Assembly: GCA_016342385.1 (NCBI GenBank)
Contig: JAEINM010000003.1
Coordinates: 1 to 33,044, forward strand
DNA: 33,044 nt
Direction: 5' to 3'
DNA from: Spirochaetaceae bacterium
Lineage (GTDB): Bacteria; Spirochaetota; Spirochaetia; DSM-2461
Shown here piece by piece: positions 3,854 to 18,323 of the stretch. Positions within the stretch are counted from its first letter, which is position 1; each line of letters starts with the position of its first letter. Position numbers and translations under genes: made by a program. The notes under the pieces were generated by a model that was given only the letters and a program-made list of their open reading frames with translations, was not told the origin of the DNA and made no database searches.

Positions 3854-5590
3854 TTGTTTCTGAAATCAGTTCAGATAAAAATTTCTGCAGTGGTCCTTGT
3901 CTTACTATTGTTAAATACTGCCGCTACAGTCCTGATCATGGCAATAATCAACTCTCCAGTTCTGAAGGTTATTTTTCTCCTCTCGGCTTTACTATTACTG
4001 TTGTTTGTTATTTTCGTCGTACTCCGCCTTGTAGTTCTCAATAAAATATATCAGCTGGAAAGAGAGGTCGATATTGTCGCCGGTGGAACTTTGGATCATA
4101 CCTTTTACTTTAAATCAGATGATGAGTTTGAAGATTTAGCCGATCGTCTCAATAATATGTTTTCTACAATTAAAAAGCGAAATATCGATGAGAGAGCCGC
4201 TCTCATCGATGAAATAACAGCTCTTGAAAATGAGAAATATCTTCTCAATGTTAATGACGGGCTATTGTTTATCGATTACGGTCAGATCATCTCCGATTAT
4301 TATTCCCAATCTCTTGTAGAAATTTTTGACAGAGATGAGATTGGAGGTCAGCACCTCTCGGACTTTCTTTTCCCTTTGAAAGAGGAACAAAGAGAGAAAA
4401 GGAAGACTCTTGAAAAATTCATTATTGGTCTGTTTAATAATCCCGATCTTTTTGATTCCATTGATAAGGGGAATAATCCTCTCCACAATATCTGGATTTC
4501 CCGGAATGATGGCAGACGGATCCTTATCGACGGAACTTATCACAAAGTGGAGGATAAAGGTGAACTCGTCCAGATTATGATAATTTTTAAAGAAAGAACT
4601 GAGGAGGGACTGCTGGAGAAAAAACTGGATGAAAAGGATATGAGGTCCAGCTTTGAACTGGAGAGTATCATTTCCATTCTTCGTGCCGGTCCCGGTCCAT
4701 TCCTTCAGTTTATACAGGAAAGTGATGGTCTTCTGGGGCAGTTCCGCTCCAATATCCTTGATATTCACAGTAAAGATGTTATAGAACACTCCTTTCGGGT
4801 TATAAATTCCATGAAGTGTTCCGCTTCATATTTTGATTTTAAATCAGTGGAAAAACTTTGTCACAATCTTGAGGACATTCTCTCTGAATTCAGGAAGGGA
4901 GATTTTGAGAGAAAAGAAGCTCTGGATATTATCATAGATGATATATACATCCAGTTTGAACATATTAATCATTTAATAAACCGCTTTGGAGAATTCCTTT
5001 CTTCGGAAGAGGGTAAAATTTATGATACCCATAAAAATGAGCAGGACCATTTTTTTGATTCTCTTAAAATTATGATGACCCGGAATGCCGATTATCTCAA
5101 CAAGGAGATCGAATTTTCCTTTCACAGTGATTTTGAAAATTTCCCATTAATTAATGAGATAAAAAATCCTGTCATTCATCTCTTGCGAAATGCTGTTGAT
5201 TTTGGAATAGAGCTTCCTTCTGAAAGGAGAAATGCCGGTAAGGGTGAGAAAGGGAAAATCGATATCTCAATAAGCGAAACCAAAGAAAGGGGCGCAAGAA
5301 TCACCATAGAGGACGATGGCCGGGGCATTGATTTTGAGAAACTCAGAGAAATTGCTATTTTAAAGGGTTTTATCAAGAAAGAGGAAAATCCCGGTCAGGG
5401 AAATCTGATCAGAACTCTTTTTAAAAGCGGATTTTCATCTCGCGATGATATCTCTGGATTATCCGGGCGTGGAGTCGGTCTTGATGCTGTTAAAGAAGAT
5501 ATAAGCAGATTGGGTGGAAAAATCTCTATTAAAACGGACCATCTAAGAGGAAGCCGTTTTACAATTTTACTTCCTCCAGGCCTGTATTAA
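3854..5590 (+). CDS. CheA-like histidine kinase: 2 TM + HAMP + PAS-like + degenerate Hpt + CheA-type ATPase, no CheW domain
   Basis: TTG start with AAGGAGG at 3841-3847; HLLRNAVDFGIELPSERR (N box), EDDGRGIDFEKL, LFKSGFSSRDDISGLSGRGVGLDAV, GSRFTILLP; Hpt-like FRVINSMKCSASYFDFKSVEKLCHNLED. Confidence 0.85.
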   Translation: MFLKSVQIKISAVVLVLLLLNTAATVLIMAIINSPVLKVIFLLSALLLLLFVIFVVLRLVVLNKIYQLEREVDIVAGGTLDHTFYFKSDDEFEDLADRLNNMFSTIKKRNIDERAALIDEITALENEKYLLNVNDGLLFIDYGQIISDYYSQSLVEIFDRDEIGGQHLSDFLFPLKEEQREKRKTLEKFIIGLFNNPDLFDSIDKGNNPLHNIWISRNDGRRILIDGTYHKVEDKGELVQIMIIFKERTEEGLLEKKLDEKDMRSSFELESIISILRAGPGPFLQFIQESDGLLGQFRSNILDIHSKDVIEHSFRVINSMKCSASYFDFKSVEKLCHNLEDILSEFRKGDFERKEALDIIIDDIYIQFEHINHLINRFGEFLSSEEGKIYDTHKNEQDHFFDSLKIMMTRNADYLNKEIEFSFHSDFENFPLINEIKNPVIHLLRNAVDFGIELPSERRNAGKGEKGKIDISISETKERGARITIEDDGRGIDFEKLREIAILKGFIKKEENPGQGNLIRTLFKSGFSSRDDISGLSGRGVGLDAVKEDISRLGGKISIKTDHLRGSRFTILLPPGLY

Positions 5591-8475: not shown

Positions 8476-9987
8476 ATGGGCAGTAAGACATTCAGAGATA
8501 AGCTAAAAAAGGCTCAGGAATTCATCGGTGGAGGACATTATCGGGAAGCTCTTAGTCTCATCATAGATGAAGAGGTCTCCAGTGTTCGGGAATTATTCAA
8601 TAAAATAGCCTCTCTTATAGATATCGGTTTTGCTCTTCGCGATGAAAAGGTGCTCCGTTATGGCATTTATCTCTTTGAAGAGCACCACAAGGAGATTATC
8701 GTACTTGTGGATTACAGAGCTCTGGTCTACTACAATCTTGCCAATCAATATGCCAATATGGCGACACTGAAGTCATTTGATAACGATTACTATAGCTGCT
8801 TTTCCCGTAGTGAACTGCAGAAGGCTAAAATGTATTATTATCTCGCCCTGGAATCTGAGAAACTGGAAGTCGGATTGAAGCGGGATATTCATATCAGTCT
8901 GGCAAACTGTTTCCGCACATTGGGCCGTTTTGAAGAAGCTCTTGAACATTACAATAATGCCCTTTTAACAGATCCCTCATCACTAATCGCTCTGGATAAT
9001 AAGACTGAACTTATGGTGGGACTCTCTTCTCTGTACTGGGATAAACGGGATGAGATTCTTAAAGAGAGCTGGGATCTGATCCAGAGCAAAGTCAATGATC
9101 AAAATGCCGCTATGAATAAAGATCTTCTGACAAAAAGCCTGACAACGATAAAAGAGCTTATTTCCAGGAAAGATTATCTGCAGGAGGAACAGATCCTACC
9201 TGTTTATACTATTGAAAGTTCCAGTGATTTCGAACATTTCTACATTTCCTGGTGTATTAAAAATAAACTGTATCTTAACTTCTGCAATTTCTGCCGAAAA
9301 TGTGATTATGCAGCAGGTGACAGAGCAGTGATTAAGAAGCAGGATATCTCTATCGGAAGAGAAGACCGCGGTCGATTTCTCCGTTTGGCATCAGCATACA
9401 ATAAACTCAAAGCTGATTATGTCAGTTCCCGGTTTCTCCTGATCCTCTCCCAGTATGAAGATCTGGATCTGGGATTTGTCAATGTAATGGCTCCCATGAT
9501 AGAAGTGCCCGGTATGGAGATCATTGATATAAAAAGTTCACTACAGAATCAGGCCTTTTTATCTCTCTGGAGGATCTGGGATAATATAGCCGCCTTTCTC
9601 AATATATACCTTTCATTCAATATGACCGGTTATATCTCAATGAAAGATATATGGTATAGCGGGGGGAATGTTAAAAAAGAAATTATTGAAAAAAAAGACC
9701 TGCTGTTAAATTCGGTGTATGATATTTACTGTGACATGTATCAGGGTAGGTTTGAAAAACTTCCTCTTTTATTTGAAATCCTCAGTGGAAAAGGTAATAG
9801 TATTAGTAAAAGTGGTTTTAACGACGAATTGAATAGAGAGGAACTGACTATAGAATTGTTTCAGGTTGTACGTCACATTCTTATGATTCTTATGCAGATG
9901 CTCGATAGCGAGGAAAAAGATGATTCAGATTTTAGAATTAATTTCCCCCTCTATTCTTTTGAAATACCCGATGCGATTAAAATATAA
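8476..9987 (+). CDS. TPR protein with possible LA2681/HEPN-like C-terminal helical domain
   Basis: TPR signature DIHISLANCFRTLGRFEEALEHYNNALLTDPSSLIALDNK; C-terminal LWRIWDNIAAFLNIYLSF...IWYSG...LLNSVYDIYCDMY reads like a HEPN_LA2681-type domain (family assignment from memory). Confidence 0.65.
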   Translation: MGSKTFRDKLKKAQEFIGGGHYREALSLIIDEEVSSVRELFNKIASLIDIGFALRDEKVLRYGIYLFEEHHKEIIVLVDYRALVYYNLANQYANMATLKSFDNDYYSCFSRSELQKAKMYYYLALESEKLEVGLKRDIHISLANCFRTLGRFEEALEHYNNALLTDPSSLIALDNKTELMVGLSSLYWDKRDEILKESWDLIQSKVNDQNAAMNKDLLTKSLTTIKELISRKDYLQEEQILPVYTIESSSDFEHFYISWCIKNKLYLNFCNFCRKCDYAAGDRAVIKKQDISIGREDRGRFLRLASAYNKLKADYVSSRFLLILSQYEDLDLGFVNVMAPMIEVPGMEIIDIKSSLQNQAFLSLWRIWDNIAAFLNIYLSFNMTGYISMKDIWYSGGNVKKEIIEKKDLLLNSVYDIYCDMYQGRFEKLPLLFEILSGKGNSISKSGFNDELNREELTIELFQVVRHILMILMQMLDSEEKDDSDFRINFPLYSFEIPDAIKI

Positions 9988-10013
9988 TAATTTTATACGA
10001 ACAGGACAATAAT

Positions 10014-12614
10014 ATGGCAACTGGATTGAACATTAAAAGAAACTCCCGGATTTTTCACATAGCAAATGAGTGTTATATCATCTATCTCGGTGTTAAGACC
10101 GATGAAGAAAAACCCTTTCTCCGTGTCGGAAATATGGAAAATATTGATAATAAAATACTCGATGTCATCTCCAATACAGTCATATCTTCACGATTTACAG
10201 GGAATCCTCTCTATGAATTGAATCTTGAGAAAACCCGGGAGATCAATTATATCGGAGATACTTCTGTTATTAACAGGATGAAAACCTATCTCGATAGTTT
10301 TCATCTTCCCTCTGAAGGTGCTGTGGATTATCATAAGATTAAAGATAGGGAAAAGAGAGATATTATTTATTTCTATAACAATGGGAATATAAAGCTCAAT
10401 TATAAAGAGGAATCTATTTTTGATCTCTACAAGCGTTCAGAAACGGATCTTCATTTTGTCAAACAATGTGACGAAATTAAAAAAAGCTTCTCCCGGAATC
10501 CCCTGCGTTATACGAAACACGATTTTCGTGAAAGTGGAATTCTTCTTTCTGGAAAGAGCCTGATTGTCTTTCATAATAGTCAGTTCTTTTCCGCTTACTT
10601 AAATAGAGACTATTTTTCAAAACTGGCAGCATCAGGTGTCGATCCCGATCAGATCACCGTTCACTATTCTCAAATCAAGGGTGGTACAGAAGATGAAGAT
10701 GCTTCATTTGCCCTGATTGAAATGCTCAAGCGCAGCAGTTACAGGGACTCGCTTTTTACAGTCCATGCCAAGTACCCCGATTACGCCCGCAAAATAGGGG
10801 CTTTATTTCCCGGTGCTCAGATCAGTAAATCAGGACCTGAATGGTGTGATGTTTTCAGTGGATTGAAGATGAGAGATCATGGAGCCGGATTGGAGATCAG
10901 TTGCAGTGGTATACCGATGAATCTGGCTATCGGCGACGAGCCGGCTTTTCCGGAGGTTCTGGCTCTTAATCATCATACCAGGACTCTCTCAATTAAAGGG
11001 GAGCATCAAACCCATGAAATAAGCATTCCCGATGGAATCCTTTGTAATATTAAAGACAAACCCTCTGACATGAGTGATCTGACTGAAGTTTACATATCAC
11101 GATTTGTACCTTTGATTAAAGGTTTTTCTTCAGAGGATGATTTTAAGGTTTCTGTAGCCATTCAGAAATTATTGAAAATGCTCGCTTCTGTGGCTGACGG
11201 TAAAGCAAAATCGGGGCTGATTATGAGAAGCTCTGTTTTTAACTTTTCCGATCTGTTAAAAAACCTTCATTTGAAAAATGACTCAATTGTAACTTTTTTT
11301 CTGCAAAATGCTCTGACCATTCTGGATCTGGCCTTAAGTCGATCAGATATGGAAGGTAAGATTGTTAAGAATATAACATCAATTAAAAGTGATATTCAAA
11401 GTATACTGACCAAATCGGAAAAAGCTGATTCTCTATTGCCCGTGGCCGCAGATATTTATATAAGGGAATTCCCCATGCTCTTATTCCGATCTGTTAAAAG
11501 TACGGCAAAAAAAGCTGATTATCTTCTGGCGGCACAGTTGGCTGACGATATTCAGGGCGAACACGATCTTTCTCCCCAGTATTATAAAGATGAAAAGATG
11601 CGCTTGTTAAAACTAATCGATATGCTGAATTCTGCAACAGACCTCGAGGTTGATAAGCTCCTGGAGAGAGAAAAACCGGCAGAACCTTACAGAGCCAGGA
11701 AAACGGAAATATTGGACAGCCGTGGTAAAAGAACAGAAAGTGTCCTAGGTGAATCAGAAAAATATGGAACCAGCCGAAAGGGCCTTAACGCGATCAGACG
11801 GAAGGACAATGGTCGATGGCCATTGTGGCTGTTGCTTCTACTCATTCCTTTCCTTCTCCTTTTATTGTGGGGCGGGTATAGAGGTATTAATTATCTGGCG
11901 AATCGCGATAAAACTGATCCTGTTGCTGTGCGGGGAGACATGGAGACAGGAGAAGGCAGACAGGAAGACGGTTCTGCAGAAGATAGTGTTGCGGATGAAG
12001 CAGCTGGGGATAGAACCACTTCGGATAGTACTGCCGCAGATAGTACTGCCGCAGATGGCACTGCCGCAGATGGCACTACCGCAGATGGTATTACCGAAAG
12101 TGAAAAAAATTCAGAAATAACGGAAACAGAATTAAAGCTTAAGGAAACTGACGCCGAAACAGATAATAGAGAGAATCAGCCTGAAGAAATTATCATGGAA
12201 ACCGATAGCCGGCCCTCTACAGTGGAAGAGGTCAAAGCCTATCTTTCTGTTGGTGATTTCTATATTTCAGAGATTGATGTTCATCTTACTTCCAATGAGA
12301 TTGCTGTGGAAAATAATTACAGAGATCTCGATTATGAAGTATATGATGGTGCCGATCCCGATTGGATATATCCGGGTAATAAAATAGTGTTGCCCGATGG
12401 AAATATCCACTATGTTAAAAAAGGTGATACTATCTGGTATATGGCAGCCAGGTATATCAGAACTACGCTGGATAGGGATATTCCTATTTATGAGATGAAT
12501 CGCGTAGATGCTGAGAACGGTAATGCAAAGGCAATATCGGTACTTGAAGAATTAATGGAAAGCACTCCCTGTGAAACTTTTCGTGAAAAAATACATGAAG
12601 TTTTAAAAAATTAA
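10014..12614 (+). CDS. Bitopic membrane protein: large N-terminal cytoplasmic region, one TM helix, low-complexity linker, LysM-like C-terminus
   Basis: No signal peptide; RRKDNGR precedes TM WPLWLLLLLIPFLLLLLWGGYRGINYLA (about 11817-11900); Ser/Thr/Ala/Asp repeats; IYPGNKIVLPDGNIHYVKKGDTIWYMAARYI is LysM-like. Confidence 0.75.
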   Translation: MATGLNIKRNSRIFHIANECYIIYLGVKTDEEKPFLRVGNMENIDNKILDVISNTVISSRFTGNPLYELNLEKTREINYIGDTSVINRMKTYLDSFHLPSEGAVDYHKIKDREKRDIIYFYNNGNIKLNYKEESIFDLYKRSETDLHFVKQCDEIKKSFSRNPLRYTKHDFRESGILLSGKSLIVFHNSQFFSAYLNRDYFSKLAASGVDPDQITVHYSQIKGGTEDEDASFALIEMLKRSSYRDSLFTVHAKYPDYARKIGALFPGAQISKSGPEWCDVFSGLKMRDHGAGLEISCSGIPMNLAIGDEPAFPEVLALNHHTRTLSIKGEHQTHEISIPDGILCNIKDKPSDMSDLTEVYISRFVPLIKGFSSEDDFKVSVAIQKLLKMLASVADGKAKSGLIMRSSVFNFSDLLKNLHLKNDSIVTFFLQNALTILDLALSRSDMEGKIVKNITSIKSDIQSILTKSEKADSLLPVAADIYIREFPMLLFRSVKSTAKKADYLLAAQLADDIQGEHDLSPQYYKDEKMRLLKLIDMLNSATDLEVDKLLEREKPAEPYRARKTEILDSRGKRTESVLGESEKYGTSRKGLNAIRRKDNGRWPLWLLLLLIPFLLLLLWGGYRGINYLANRDKTDPVAVRGDMETGEGRQEDGSAEDSVADEAAGDRTTSDSTAADSTAADGTAADGTTADGITESEKNSEITETELKLKETDAETDNRENQPEEIIMETDSRPSTVEEVKAYLSVGDFYISEIDVHLTSNEIAVENNYRDLDYEVYDGADPDWIYPGNKIVLPDGNIHYVKKGDTIWYMAARYIRTTLDRDIPIYEMNRVDAENGNAKAISVLEELMESTPCETFREKIHEVLKN
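12024..12098 (+). repeat. 15-bp in-frame tandem repeat encoding D-[SG]-[TI]-[AT]-[AE]
   Basis: GATAGTACTGCCGCA x2, GATGGCACTGCCGCA, GATGGCACTACCGCA, GATGGTATTACCGAA; preceded by a degenerate copy GATAGAACCACTTCG. Confidence 0.9.
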
Positions 12615-12737: not shown

Positions 12738-14729
12738 ATGGCAGGAGATCTTCCTAGAAGTCCCAATGTATTTCATCCAACTAAACCTTCGGCAGTAGGT
12801 TCCAGAAACAGTCTTGCTCAGGAAGGACGTGAGCAAAATGAAGAATTTGATCGGTTAATAACTGAGGAAAGTGAAAAAGTTCTCAAGGAAGTAACCACAA
12901 GACTGCCACCTGAAGTTCTGAAAGAACTTGATGTGATGGGTGGTCTTAAACAAAAAGTTTATAACTACTATAACCAGAATTACCAGAACATGTTCAACCG
13001 TTATATCGTTACGACTGAAGATGAAATGGTTAAAAAAATCAGAAACTTTGTTGATAAAGAAGAAACAAAGGCTTTAGCCAGGTATACGCCTAAAGAAATT
13101 TCTGAACTTTTAGATCAGGTCGGTGGGGCAGATAAATTTAATACAGGTGAAATTGAGAAATCAATGATCAATATGTATGGTCACCTTCAGGGCCATATGC
13201 AGAGAGGTATGAATGACCTTGAAAATGAAACTAACTCACTTCTGAGACAGAAGACCGATGTTGGTGCGTTTATTCGTGGAGAGAATGCATACTCAATTGT
13301 TAAGTGTGCCTTTAAAGACAATCCGATTAAACCCAAAACTATATCCGATGTTAAACTTTCTGTTAATATTCTTGACTCTGAACTGATTTCACCGATTTTC
13401 CAGTATCAGGCTTCTGTCGAGTATATTATTAAAGATCAGATTTCCAAGACAATCATAGATATGATTGATAAAGAAGTTGAGGTTTTCCAGGATCAGCTTG
13501 TTGATGAAGGAAAAGAGGAGCTGGCTGATTCTGAAATAATGTTTGAGAGAATCAAAAGAGTTCCTGACTTTACAGATGATGACAAGGAAAATGCTGATTC
13601 CAGAAGATATACATTCATGGCAAAAGAGCTGGTTGATAAGATTGAAGGTCTTAGGGCAGAAATCCCTAAAGATGAATTTGATTCCCAGAACATTCGAGAA
13701 AATATTAAGAAAATTGTCGATATTGAGAATATTAGAAACAGGGGTTTTAATACGGCTGTCAATAATATTACCGCTATCCTCGATACGAGCAAAATGGGTT
13801 ATCAGTATATTGAAAACCTGAAGAATGGTCGTGAACTTATTATCAGAGAATATGAAGATACAAATGAACTAATGCTTCCCGATGAGCGCTATGCTATAAA
13901 GCTGAAATATTATGATCACAGCCAGCTTGTAAAAATCAGAGCGGCCTATGATCTGCAGATGGATGAATTCAGAAAAGAAATCATTCATATCTGGGATGTG
14001 GCGGAAGTCGTTTACCAGGGTACAAAGCGATTTGGAAGAATCGATGACTTCGATGATCTTGCACTGAAAACCAAAGGTAAATTGTCGAAACTGGTTGGAA
14101 ACAGAGGCATACACAATCTTCAGGGTGATACTCTTTATGAAGATGAAGTCAAACTCTGGAACGAGATTCTTCAATTAAAAGCAGAGGATACAGAAGTTGA
14201 AAAACTCAATCAGACTTATCTTCATGAAAAAGATCTTCTGAAAAAAATGTTAAGAAGAGTTCGGGCTAAAGTAAAAACTACTTTCGGTTATGAAAATCCT
14301 AAAACAAGAGTTGTTATGGATCAGAGAATTGATTTTCTGGAAAATGAATTTGAATCTTTTGATTACCAGATTAATCCTTATCACATCCAGCCGGGTATAA
14401 TCCTTGATGTAGACATTACCAGTATCAAGAGAAAGAAATTTACTCTTAACAGAATGGCTAATGTTCTCAATGAATTCCTCAATGGTGTGTCAAAAGGATT
14501 CCAGGATGCTGCATTTGCTTCATTTAAACGAAGACGGTCAACAGTTCGTGAAGATATTAATCAGAGCTTTGCTTCTGATGTTTCCGCCAGCGAGCAGTCC
14601 CAGAGCAGTTATTCCATGGATCAGTTGAAAGCTAAAGGTGCACAGTCCGATGAGGCCAAAGGCAAAGCAGACGTTACACCTAAAAGGCGTAGTAAAAAAA
14701 TAAATATGGACGAATTAAGCGAGCTTTAA
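12738..14729 (+). CDS. cfpA: Cytoplasmic filament protein A (CfpA-type)
   Basis: N-terminus [61 protein letters not shown] recognised as spirochaete CfpA; 663 aa, no TM, helical; next to a PPDK-like gene as I recall for T. pallidum; RBS GAGGAGAG. Confidence 0.85.
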
Positions 14730-14732
14730 TGT

Positions 14733-15677
14733 ATGAAAGAAGTAGACAGTGCCAATAAACTGAATCTACTTTCAAGCAGGGCGGGATTTAATCTCGCTCT
14801 GCGTCACTTTAAAAGGGTTCTGGCTTTTTCTTCAGAAGTCGACGACGGTGAAAATCTGGCCGATCTTTTAAATGAGGCGCTTGATGAAAGTGAAATTCAG
14901 GAAAACCAGATTAGACCTATCATAAACTCATTACTGATTCAGAAATTCAACTACAAATATAAATCACACAACCTTGTTGAGTCGGTTATCTTTTCAGAAA
15001 AAATCATCAATACTGTAAATCAGTGGACTGCAATAGAACTTGTTGTATTGTATTATAATCCATCGTCAGAAATCTCAGTCATAAATCCCAAAAACCGATC
15101 AAACATTGACACTGAACAGCGTCTGGTTAAGGATGAGCTGATAGTCTGTTATTCAGGAGCTGCAGAAGAAGGTGTTTCTGATACAACTCTGAGATCAGCA
15201 GCAGATGACTTTTTAAAACTCATATATGGTGAGGATGTTGCCGTCCGGGATGATTACAAAAGCTGCCGGGGAAGCTTTTCAAAAAAAACAGCTGCTCCTG
15301 AAAAAGTTGTCCTTAATAAACCTGTAGATCCTCAACCTTCAGGGAAAAGAAGGGTTACCACAAAATATGGTGTTCAGGTGACAAATGAAGTTTTTCACAA
15401 TGGGAATGTTGAAGCTTGGAAGAAAATAATCGATAGTTATACAACTGCTTATCCCGGGACTGAAATACTTGTGTGGTACGAGGATGAAAAGATAAATGAT
15501 ATTAATGCTCTATTTAAGTGGGGTAAAGTAAAACACGGGTGTCCTATTATGTTCAGTGTTGCCGGTGATGAAATAAAGGATGTTTCCAAGCTAAAAAAAT
15601 ACCTTTTTGAAGGAGCCAGTTCCCGGTTCGAGGCTTTTTTAAAGGGTGCTGTAGGAAGTGTTCTGGATCTATTTTAA
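14733..15677 (+). CDS. Conserved hypothetical protein of the cfpA cluster, likely translationally coupled
   Basis: 314-aa ORF starting 4 nt after the cfpA stop; no motif recognised. Confidence 0.8.
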   Translation: MKEVDSANKLNLLSSRAGFNLALRHFKRVLAFSSEVDDGENLADLLNEALDESEIQENQIRPIINSLLIQKFNYKYKSHNLVESVIFSEKIINTVNQWTAIELVVLYYNPSSEISVINPKNRSNIDTEQRLVKDELIVCYSGAAEEGVSDTTLRSAADDFLKLIYGEDVAVRDDYKSCRGSFSKKTAAPEKVVLNKPVDPQPSGKRRVTTKYGVQVTNEVFHNGNVEAWKKIIDSYTTAYPGTEILVWYEDEKINDINALFKWGKVKHGCPIMFSVAGDEIKDVSKLKKYLFEGASSRFEAFLKGAVGSVLDLF

Positions 15678-15692
15678 TAAAGGGTTTTACAT

Positions 15693-18323
15693 ATGAATGA
15701 GATTTATTCCTTTAGTAGCGAAGAATATACAGCAGATTCTAAAATGATTGAAACAATGGGTATCCGAGGAAAGAGGATTATGGAGCTGGCCAAACTGGGT
15801 GTTCCTACTCTTCCAGGATTTATCCTTAATAATGATTTTCTGGAAACAGAAGAAGAATCTCCTAAAGAGCATTTTACTAATTTTAAAGCAGCCATTACTA
15901 AAATCGGAAATATTCTGGATAAGAAATTTGGTGATCCACAAAATCCTCTACTGGTAAAAATGGTCGTCAGCCCCATGTTGAATATGGTGTATACAGTATT
16001 CAGCGTACATAATATCGGTCTTTGCGATTCCACGATAGATGGTTTTTCCGCCTTTGTCGGTGAGAGTTTTGCCTATCATGAATATCGAAATGTTATTTTA
16101 CGAATTATAGAACTGGATTTGAAAAGCACAGAAGAAAAAGACCGGAAAAAAACCCTAACAAGTTTACTGACAAAAGTTAAAAAAGTCAAAAGTGTCGCCA
16201 AAATAAAAGAAGTGATGGAAAATGTAAAAGAATTTTATCCTTTGGAAATTTTTACTGATGCCTGGAAACAGAGTGCCTTTGTTGAAAATCTATATAAGCG
16301 ATTTTTTATCGGAAATGAAGCTCTTAATGATTCTGCTCTTCTTGTACAGGCTATGACTTTTGGGAACTATGGAAAAGAGAGTTATTTCGGCAGTTATTAC
16401 ACGAGAAATATTGTGACAGGAAAAGGGGAGCTCTCAGGTGAATACTTTGAAAATTCCTTTGATTCCAAAGGGAAGAATGGTAAAAAGATCACCTTAATTA
16501 AAGCCCCCTATTTAGATGGCCTCAAACAGATAGCTTCTGAATTGGAGAGAAGTTATAAAGAGATCAGAAAGATAACTTTTACAATAGAAGACGGTAGATT
16601 ATGGGTCATTGACCAGTTTGAATCATCAGATAAATCAACTCAAGCAGAGATGAAAACACTTCTGGATCTACATAAAGATGAAGTAATTGATGATAATTAT
16701 CTCATTCACGCTCTTAAACCGGGGAGGTTTGCTGAAATTCTTCATCCCGTACTGGATAAAGAGGCTGCCAAAGATGTTCCTTTTGTTCAGGGAGGCATTG
16801 CCGGTGCCATGGGCGCGGCTGTGGGTAAAATTTATTTCTCAACAGATAGACTTCTCAAAGAGTATAAAATTGCACAGCAGAAAAATCTTGATCTTGATTT
16901 TATACTGATCATGTCTTCAACTTATGCAGAAGATGTTAAAGCGATTGAAGTCGCAAGAGGGGTAGTGACTCAGGAAGGTGGTTATGCATCACATGCTCCT
17001 GTTGTAGCGAGAAGCCTTGGAAAAATCGCTATGGTTTATCCGGAAATGGAATTCAAGAAAGATCATATTGTTATTGATGGAAAGAAATTAAAAGAGGGTG
17101 ATATCATAGCTCTCGATGTGCCATCATATGATAAACCCAAAATCTATTTCAGTAAATTACCACTGATTGAACCTAAGATAAAAGACTGTGGTATTTTAGA
17201 ATTCCTGGAGATAATTCAGAGGCATATTGGCGATTTTGATATCCATGCCAATGCAGATCAGCCCAAGGATGCTGAACTGGCAAAACTTTTTAAAGCTGAT
17301 GGTATTGGATTGTGTAGAACAGAACATATGTTTTTTGAAGAGAAGAGAATCGCCATTTTCAGAACCCTGATAATAGCTGATTCAAAAGAGGAAAGAATAA
17401 AAGCATTAAATAAACTGAAGCCGATGCAGGTCGGTGATTTCTACAATTTATTTAAGATAATGGAAAGTCATCCAGTCACTATCAGGCTTCTCGATGCTCC
17501 ACTACACGAGTTTCTGCCTCATACCAGACAGAGTATGATTGACTTTATTGAGTTTGCCCTAAAACAGAACCCCAAGCTCACGGAAGTAGAAATACGCGAA
17601 AGATGTGATATGCTAGGCGAACAGAATCCTATGCTTGGACACAGAGGTGTCAGAGTGGCTATTACTTATCCGGAAATTTACAACATGCAGGTTTCCGCTA
17701 TTTTTGAAGCAGCCTATAAGCTGCAGAAAGAGGGGATAGATATAGTTCCGGAAATTATGATCCCTATTATTATGGATGCCAATGAAGTCCGGGCTATTCG
17801 TTTCGGAAAAAAAATCGAAGGAACTGAAATTATCGGAATCACTGAAATAGAGAAGCAGGTTCGCGATAAAATGGGTGGCCGTGCTCTTGAATACAAAGTC
17901 GGTGTAATGATCGAACTGCCTGCGGCTGTGCTCAATGCCGACAAAATTGCTAAATATGCTGACTTTTTCAGCTTTGGAACAAATGATCTTACGCAGACAA
18001 CGAATGGTTTATCCAGAGATGATTTTAACTCCTTCTTTACAAATTATAGTGAATTTGACCTTCTGGAAAAGAATCCGTTCCAGGTGCTGGGCAAACAGGT
18101 TAAAGAGATGATTTCTATAGCTGCGGAAAGAGGTCATTTGACCAGACCGGATATATCCATGGGAATCTGCGGAGAGCATGGGGCAGAACCATCAAATCTG
18201 CCGTTTATCAGATCCTGCGGATTAAACTATGCATCCTGTTCTCCCTATGGTATTCCCATAGCAAAACTTGCTCTAGCTCAAATGAATGTTGAACCGGCAA
18301 AAGGACAACGCCGGGCCTTCTGA
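15693..18323 (+). CDS. Pyruvate phosphate dikinase-like protein with degenerate ATP-binding domain
   Basis: TQEGGYASHAPVVARSLGK (phospho-His), GIGLCRTEHMFF, VTIRLLDAPLHEFLP, EQNPMLGHRGVRVAITYPEI, FFSFGTNDLTQ, GICGEHGAEPSN conserved; N-terminal nucleotide motifs lost. Confidence 0.9.
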   Translation: MNEIYSFSSEEYTADSKMIETMGIRGKRIMELAKLGVPTLPGFILNNDFLETEEESPKEHFTNFKAAITKIGNILDKKFGDPQNPLLVKMVVSPMLNMVYTVFSVHNIGLCDSTIDGFSAFVGESFAYHEYRNVILRIIELDLKSTEEKDRKKTLTSLLTKVKKVKSVAKIKEVMENVKEFYPLEIFTDAWKQSAFVENLYKRFFIGNEALNDSALLVQAMTFGNYGKESYFGSYYTRNIVTGKGELSGEYFENSFDSKGKNGKKITLIKAPYLDGLKQIASELERSYKEIRKITFTIEDGRLWVIDQFESSDKSTQAEMKTLLDLHKDEVIDDNYLIHALKPGRFAEILHPVLDKEAAKDVPFVQGGIAGAMGAAVGKIYFSTDRLLKEYKIAQQKNLDLDFILIMSSTYAEDVKAIEVARGVVTQEGGYASHAPVVARSLGKIAMVYPEMEFKKDHIVIDGKKLKEGDIIALDVPSYDKPKIYFSKLPLIEPKIKDCGILEFLEIIQRHIGDFDIHANADQPKDAELAKLFKADGIGLCRTEHMFFEEKRIAIFRTLIIADSKEERIKALNKLKPMQVGDFYNLFKIMESHPVTIRLLDAPLHEFLPHTRQSMIDFIEFALKQNPKLTEVEIRERCDMLGEQNPMLGHRGVRVAITYPEIYNMQVSAIFEAAYKLQKEGIDIVPEIMIPIIMDANEVRAIRFGKKIEGTEIIGITEIEKQVRDKMGGRALEYKVGVMIELPAAVLNADKIAKYADFFSFGTNDLTQTTNGLSRDDFNSFFTNYSEFDLLEKNPFQVLGKQVKEMISIAAERGHLTRPDISMGICGEHGAEPSNLPFIRSCGLNYASCSPYGIPIAKLALAQMNVEPAKGQRRAF

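Follow-up and report, generated by a model that had tools for sequence, protein, structure and literature searches.

LINK, a predicted membrane-to-wall linker protein co-inherited with the cytoplasmic filament protein CfpA in most CfpA-bearing spirochetes

CfpA ribbons run the whole length of the cell beneath the inner membrane, and we know of no molecular tie between them and the envelope. Could the gene next to cfpA encode such a tie? The question is raised by contig JAEINM010000003.1 of a Spirochaetaceae bacterium (GCA_016342385.1), of which we analyzed positions 1–33,044; this whole 33,044-nt stretch is called the window, and all positions follow its numbering. The initial annotation had described an 866-aa protein without a signal peptide, encoded directly upstream of cfpA, and had proposed that it links the filament to peptidoglycan. 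The reading frame (10014–12614, + strand) is open throughout from its ATG, and we use the working name LINK for its product, a single-pass membrane protein as judged from translation and family alignments. No hydrophobic stretch was present at the N-terminus, and the downstream gene (12738–14729, +) was identified as that of CfpA, here 663 aa long, by NF040882 (1060 bits vs. a cut-off of 500). By consensus matches only, a sigma-70-like promoter match (11/12) was located 5′ of LINK at 9959–9988, and no terminator-like site was detected between LINK and cfpA on the same strand. Farther upstream, the window encodes a histidine kinase-like protein (3854–5590) whose single chain combines HAMP, PAS, Hpt and CheA-like ATPase parts.

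Relatives of LINK were collected from the order of the source organism, from the phylum and from named species genomes, the last of which gave 50 LINK loci, all in Spirochaetota groups and all from MAGs or an uncultured symbiont. The family alignment displayed a conserved N-domain, a variable middle, one transmembrane (TM) helix and a conserved C-domain. When 33 diverse members were aligned, the invariant positions of the N-domain included R12, E19, C20, G26, P34, F35, R37, G39, G63, E68 and G81. Of the lineages examined, even those that have diverged most still mostly encode the N-domain together with the LysM-like domain in one reading frame. Three relatives of 649–679 aa located near cfpA (L143:1737–3749, L144:10012–12048 and L153:911–2857) lack the LysM-like end, and two of them, the f49 members L143 and L144, also lack the TM helix. 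Stand-alone LINK-type N-domains of ~300 aa, with neither TM helix nor LysM, were observed as well (L147:3085–3984 and L149:3426–4334), and the genomes that encode them (G026 and G040) additionally carry full-length LINK. Literature searches returned no description of the family. Judging from the alignments, LINK is an uncharacterized Spirochaetota family of constant architecture.

What do the individual parts of the protein resemble? The N-terminal ~600 residues had been regarded as being of unrecognized fold. In a full-length AlphaFold2 model built on a 58-sequence alignment, 525 of the 866 residues had a pLDDT of at least 90, and values above 90 covered most of residues 10–540 and 737–865. 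Residues 5–356 (N-domain; 10026–11081, +), modeled separately, gave a mean pLDDT of 90.9 and a pTM of 0.88. When this model was compared with the PDB by Foldseek, the top-50 matches were mostly of the metallo-beta-lactamase (MBL) fold (best E 9e-5), and the earlier view of an unrecognized fold had to be revised. Among the matches listed, the target-normalized TM-scores were at most 0.43 and the identities 6–14%. Sequence searches of the PDB with the whole protein and with N-domain profiles returned nothing credible, only the fold comparison giving matches, and PHROGs gave no match to LINK. None of the 58 family members has the metal-binding motif HxHxDH, and no His position exceeds 55% conservation. 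Many members read TDxxTGNP in the loop that is probably equivalent to the motif. The N-domain is predicted to be a distant, metal-free MBL-like domain, which would resemble the MBL superfamily in the predicted fold of residues 5–356 but differs from it in lacking both HxHxDH and a sequence-level match. Residues 353–552 (11070–11669, +) were assigned to a helical domain from the secondary structure and confidence of the AlphaFold2 model. Both domains are predicted to be cytoplasmic.

Exactly one TM helix was found in LINK, at residues 604–622 by hydropathy and 604–628 (11823–11897, +) by AlphaFold2, in agreement with the single helix annotated initially at 11817–11900. The basic stretch RRKDNGR sits immediately N-terminal of it, as had been noted. 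An excess of Lys and Arg in the 20 residues before the helix over the 20 residues after it was counted in 46 of 58 family members (9 were ties), and this positive-inside bias, present in LINK itself and in the 46 relatives, supports the earlier placement of the large domain inside and of the LysM-like end outside. By prediction, LINK is probably an N-in single-pass protein with a wall-binding-like end outside. The helix is followed by an acidic linker rich in Ser, Thr, Ala and Asp (residues 629–728; 11898–12197, +), which carries a net charge of about −20 and is disordered in the AlphaFold2 model. A 15-bp tandem repeat in 4.5 copies (12024–12090) was detected in the DNA of this linker, which had been described correctly as acidic and repetitive.

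The C-terminal domain (residues 736–866; 12219–12611, +), predicted to be periplasmic, was analyzed by Pfam, PDB profile search, alignment and AlphaFold2. The two LysM-like pieces reported by the initial annotation, WIYPGNKIVLPDG at residues 784–796 and YVKKGDTIWYMA at residues 800–811, are present in their places, but the halves stand in inverted order. Across the family Y.VKKGDTIW, with which a normal LysM begins, follows DPDWIYPGN..LPD, with which it would end; the canonical beta-alpha-alpha-beta order, with the GDT-W half first and the PG-IP half last, was not found in the LINK family. The Pfam LysM model (PF01476) scored 19.9 bits on whole LINK vs. a cut-off of 20.9, and 26.0 bits on the isolated segment. 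When the halves were swapped by hand in five members, one gave a full-length LysM match, and the other four changed little. A circularly permuted LysM is a possible, if weakly supported, reading of these sequences. As the order of the halves is unusual, glycan binding is not assured. By sequence comparison, the architecture with a LysM-like end is more than chance, because it turns up again in relatives with identities as low as about 20%.

How closely is LINK tied to CfpA? Among 26 genomes of the order of the source organism, LINK and cfpA were both present in 22 and both absent from 4, with no mixed case. Three of the 4 joint absences make up a whole genus, which belongs to the family of the source organism, and one of these three genomes is 96% complete. 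Across 395 genomes of the phylum, 93 carried both genes, 46 cfpA only, 3 LINK only and 253 neither; the three LINK-only genomes were 69–77% complete. A Fisher p-value calculated for these counts takes no account of phylogeny and is not to be read literally. Outside the class of the source organism LINK was present in 84 of 85 cfpA genomes, the exception being 76% complete. The count of 93 includes one genome (G241) added from searches with the full profile and the N-domain profile, and the count of 3 leaves out seven weak LINK matches (E 1e-6 to 1e-3) from genomes without cfpA. One of these (L155, in G224) was rejected as a LINK since it gave no match to the profile of the N-domain or of the C-domain, and the other six were treated in the same manner without separate inspection. 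With the weak matches counted, the table became 92 both, 47 cfpA only, 10 LINK only and 246 neither, and the conclusion was unchanged. Absence from most cfpA-bearing genomes had been named in advance as evidence against the proposal; LINK was found in 93 of 139.

Gene order points in the same direction. The order LINK, cfpA, W314, pyruvate phosphate dikinase (PPDK)-like gene (the last two are described below) recurs in several families, and cfpA came next on the same strand in all 39 LINK loci of named genomes with enough downstream sequence, a set that is biased by having been found via similarity to the linked form. On its own, such an order is weak evidence because the cluster also holds the PPDK-like metabolic gene. 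In many genomes outside the class of the source organism LINK and cfpA lie on different contigs (in G138, for example, cfpA is on C6 and LINK on C39), and this unlinked co-occurrence weighs more than gene order for a tie between the two proteins. A second TM-LysM family, A6, served as a control and was found in genomes with or without cfpA. It might be argued that nothing but phylogeny and an ancient gene cluster connects LINK with CfpA, and that LINK has an unrelated role in the envelope. LINK-lacking and LINK-bearing genomes are clustered on the CfpA tree, with one change between the two states, so that counts of genomes suggest more independence than there is, and 46 cfpA genomes do lack LINK. 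Against this stand the lack of both genes from one genus of the same family as the source organism, the retention of LINK where it lies far from cfpA, and the lack in our sample of any complete cfpA-negative genome with LINK, and we hold mere shared descent to be very improbable. The association with cfpA, as proposed initially, was upheld within the order, outside the class and in the unlinked state, far more strongly than the neighboring position of the genes could do, and LINK is very probably tied functionally to CfpA.

Co-inheritance with cfpA was observed except in one LINK-lacking clade. Nearly all of the 46 cfpA genomes without LINK fall into it, including the lineages whose ribbons were actually studied. 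In a CfpA tree of 45 genomes, the 16 LINK-lacking genomes formed one clade (100/99), which holds the Treponema-like genomes and is nested among LINK-bearing genomes under midpoint rooting. A single loss of LINK in the Treponema-like clade would be the simplest account of this tree. Searches of the LINK-lacking cfpA genomes with the full profile and the N-domain profile uncovered no hidden member, and the only N-domain match from that search in the class of the source organism was in G326 (16 bits, E 0.004). One genome of the clade, G082, has gene surroundings that we take to be those of T. pallidum. The initial annotation drew on treponemes, but Treponema-like cfpA genomes are without LINK, which is for this reason probably a different protein from the treponemal anchor. 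The ribbons of LINK-bearing spirochetes are themselves deduced from CfpA.

The accompanying statement that no described anchor was known calls for caution, since a 2004 tomography study by Izard et al. reported 'novel bridging and anchoring components' of treponemal filaments, to go by its title as cited in PMC3398590 and PMC13398306. As far as that title tells, these components are similar to LINK in the role proposed for it and differ in having been described in treponemes; Treponema-like genomes lack LINK. To our knowledge, no protein identity has been assigned to them. T. denticola without CfpA displays filamentation and chromosome condensation (PMC3398590). We also considered A6 as a cfpA-specific replacement anchor in Treponema and rejected it, since it is present in genomes without cfpA as well. 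A6 shares with LINK the succession of cytoplasmic domain, TM helix, linker and LysM, but its N-domain is unrelated (HSP70-like), its LysM is canonical, and it occurs with or without cfpA. Its members in Treponema-like genomes are L088, L090, L092, L097 and L101, and the N-part of one of them matches the HSP70 Pfam model. The absence of LINK from Treponema-like genomes calls for caution in carrying treponeme results to other spirochetes, and vice versa.

Downstream of cfpA lies the gene for W314 (14733–15677, +), a soluble 314-aa protein with no Pfam family, which we followed by presence counts and synteny. W314 was present in 134 of 139 cfpA genomes, Treponema-like ones included, and in only 3 other genomes. 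Its C-terminal part is very conserved (VTNELFHNGNVEAWK...LFKWGKVKHG), and in some families (e.g., in G057 and G078) it is encoded on a different contig from cfpA. W314 tracks CfpA more tightly than LINK does, as a near-obligate companion, and makes, of the two, the stronger candidate for a universal companion of the filament. The conserved cluster is closed by the PPDK-like gene (15693–18323, +), assigned by TIGR01828 and synteny. Its product scored 651 bits vs. a cut-off of 843, and the only Pfam matches were to PEP-utilizers domains, none to the N-terminal domain of PPDK; the protein is possibly divergent. One genome, G339, has two cfpA genes ~2 Mb apart (L082 and L083), and W314 and the PPDK-like gene stand beside only one of them.

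What would LINK do at the filament? We favor, with slightly better than even confidence, a CfpA-associated linker that reaches from the membrane to peptidoglycan and physically anchors the ribbon, where contact with both CfpA and peptidoglycan is what we infer. The inner domains would bind the CfpA ribbon, either directly or via a protein on it such as W314, the LysM-like end would grip the glycan strands of peptidoglycan, and the flexible outer linker would set the reach. In this manner LINK would keep the ribbon beneath the inner membrane and couple it to the wall, such that filament and wall would bend and divide together; the Treponema-like clade, in which LINK was apparently lost once, would have to use another means. 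The architecture and the co-inheritance would also fit a sensor or regulator of wall state, whose LysM end reads peptidoglycan and whose metal-free MBL-like domain signals to a cytoplasmic partner controlling CfpA assembly, division or metabolism, with no mechanical hold. Enzyme-derived domains often act as signaling modules, and a PPDK-like gene is part of the cluster. Yet no known signaling domain was detected in LINK by Pfam or NCBIfam, and a long disordered linker would suit reach over tight signal coupling, which leaves a sensor unlikely in our estimate.

LINK might also position wall-synthesis or division enzymes along the filament, as a scaffold like LmdC or RodZ, and not anchor the ribbon as such. 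Filament-guided bitopic proteins exist (PMC10945521), and the loss of CfpA in T. denticola results in filamentation, a division defect (PMC3398590), but Pfam and NCBIfam found no hydrolase or synthase domain in LINK and the conserved cluster contains no wall gene; we consider such a scaffold improbable. The anchoring linker can be placed in a broader picture, which we put forward tentatively and with somewhat less than even confidence. LINK would be the ancestral cytoskeleton-to-wall coupler of most CfpA-bearing spirochetes, combining a metal-free MBL-like filament-binding head with a rearranged LysM wall grip, and would form the CfpA filament apparatus together with W314; it would have been lost in the Treponema-like clade, where another anchor serves. 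LINK, with its clear domain borders, and W314 make the tie between ribbon and envelope directly testable.

Two known systems come close to this layout. FimV/HubP, polar organizers of Pseudomonas, Vibrio and Shewanella, are like LINK bitopic, with a periplasmic LysM-like domain, one TM helix and a large cytoplasmic part. FimV has a signal peptide and an N-terminal LysM, and its cytoplasmic part is acidic and terminates in a TPR-like FimV domain, whereas LINK has the reversed orientation, an MBL-like cytoplasmic domain and its acidic stretch outside. LINK is not a member of the FimV/HubP group: it has no signal peptide-like stretch, no TPR/FimV family was found by Pfam or NCBIfam, and its LysM-like end is C-terminal. 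LmdC, a bitopic M23 peptidase, is also a single-pass N-in protein encoded beside a cytoskeletal filament gene, and its periplasmic part acts on the wall while its cytoplasmic part binds the filament (PMC10945521). LmdC carries an M23 enzyme and a tail in the cytoplasm that is short, in contrast to the ~600 residues inside and no recognized enzyme domain of LINK, which gave no M23 match in Pfam or NCBIfam and falls outside the LmdC type. Both systems nevertheless provide precedents for the proposed contacts. FimV attaches to sacculi through its LysM (PMC12918733), a case of sacculus binding by the LysM-like domain of a bitopic protein. Likewise, a bitopic protein can bind, by its cytoplasmic portion, the filament whose gene neighbors its own, as LmdC does with bactofilin through its cytoplasmic tail (PMC10945521).
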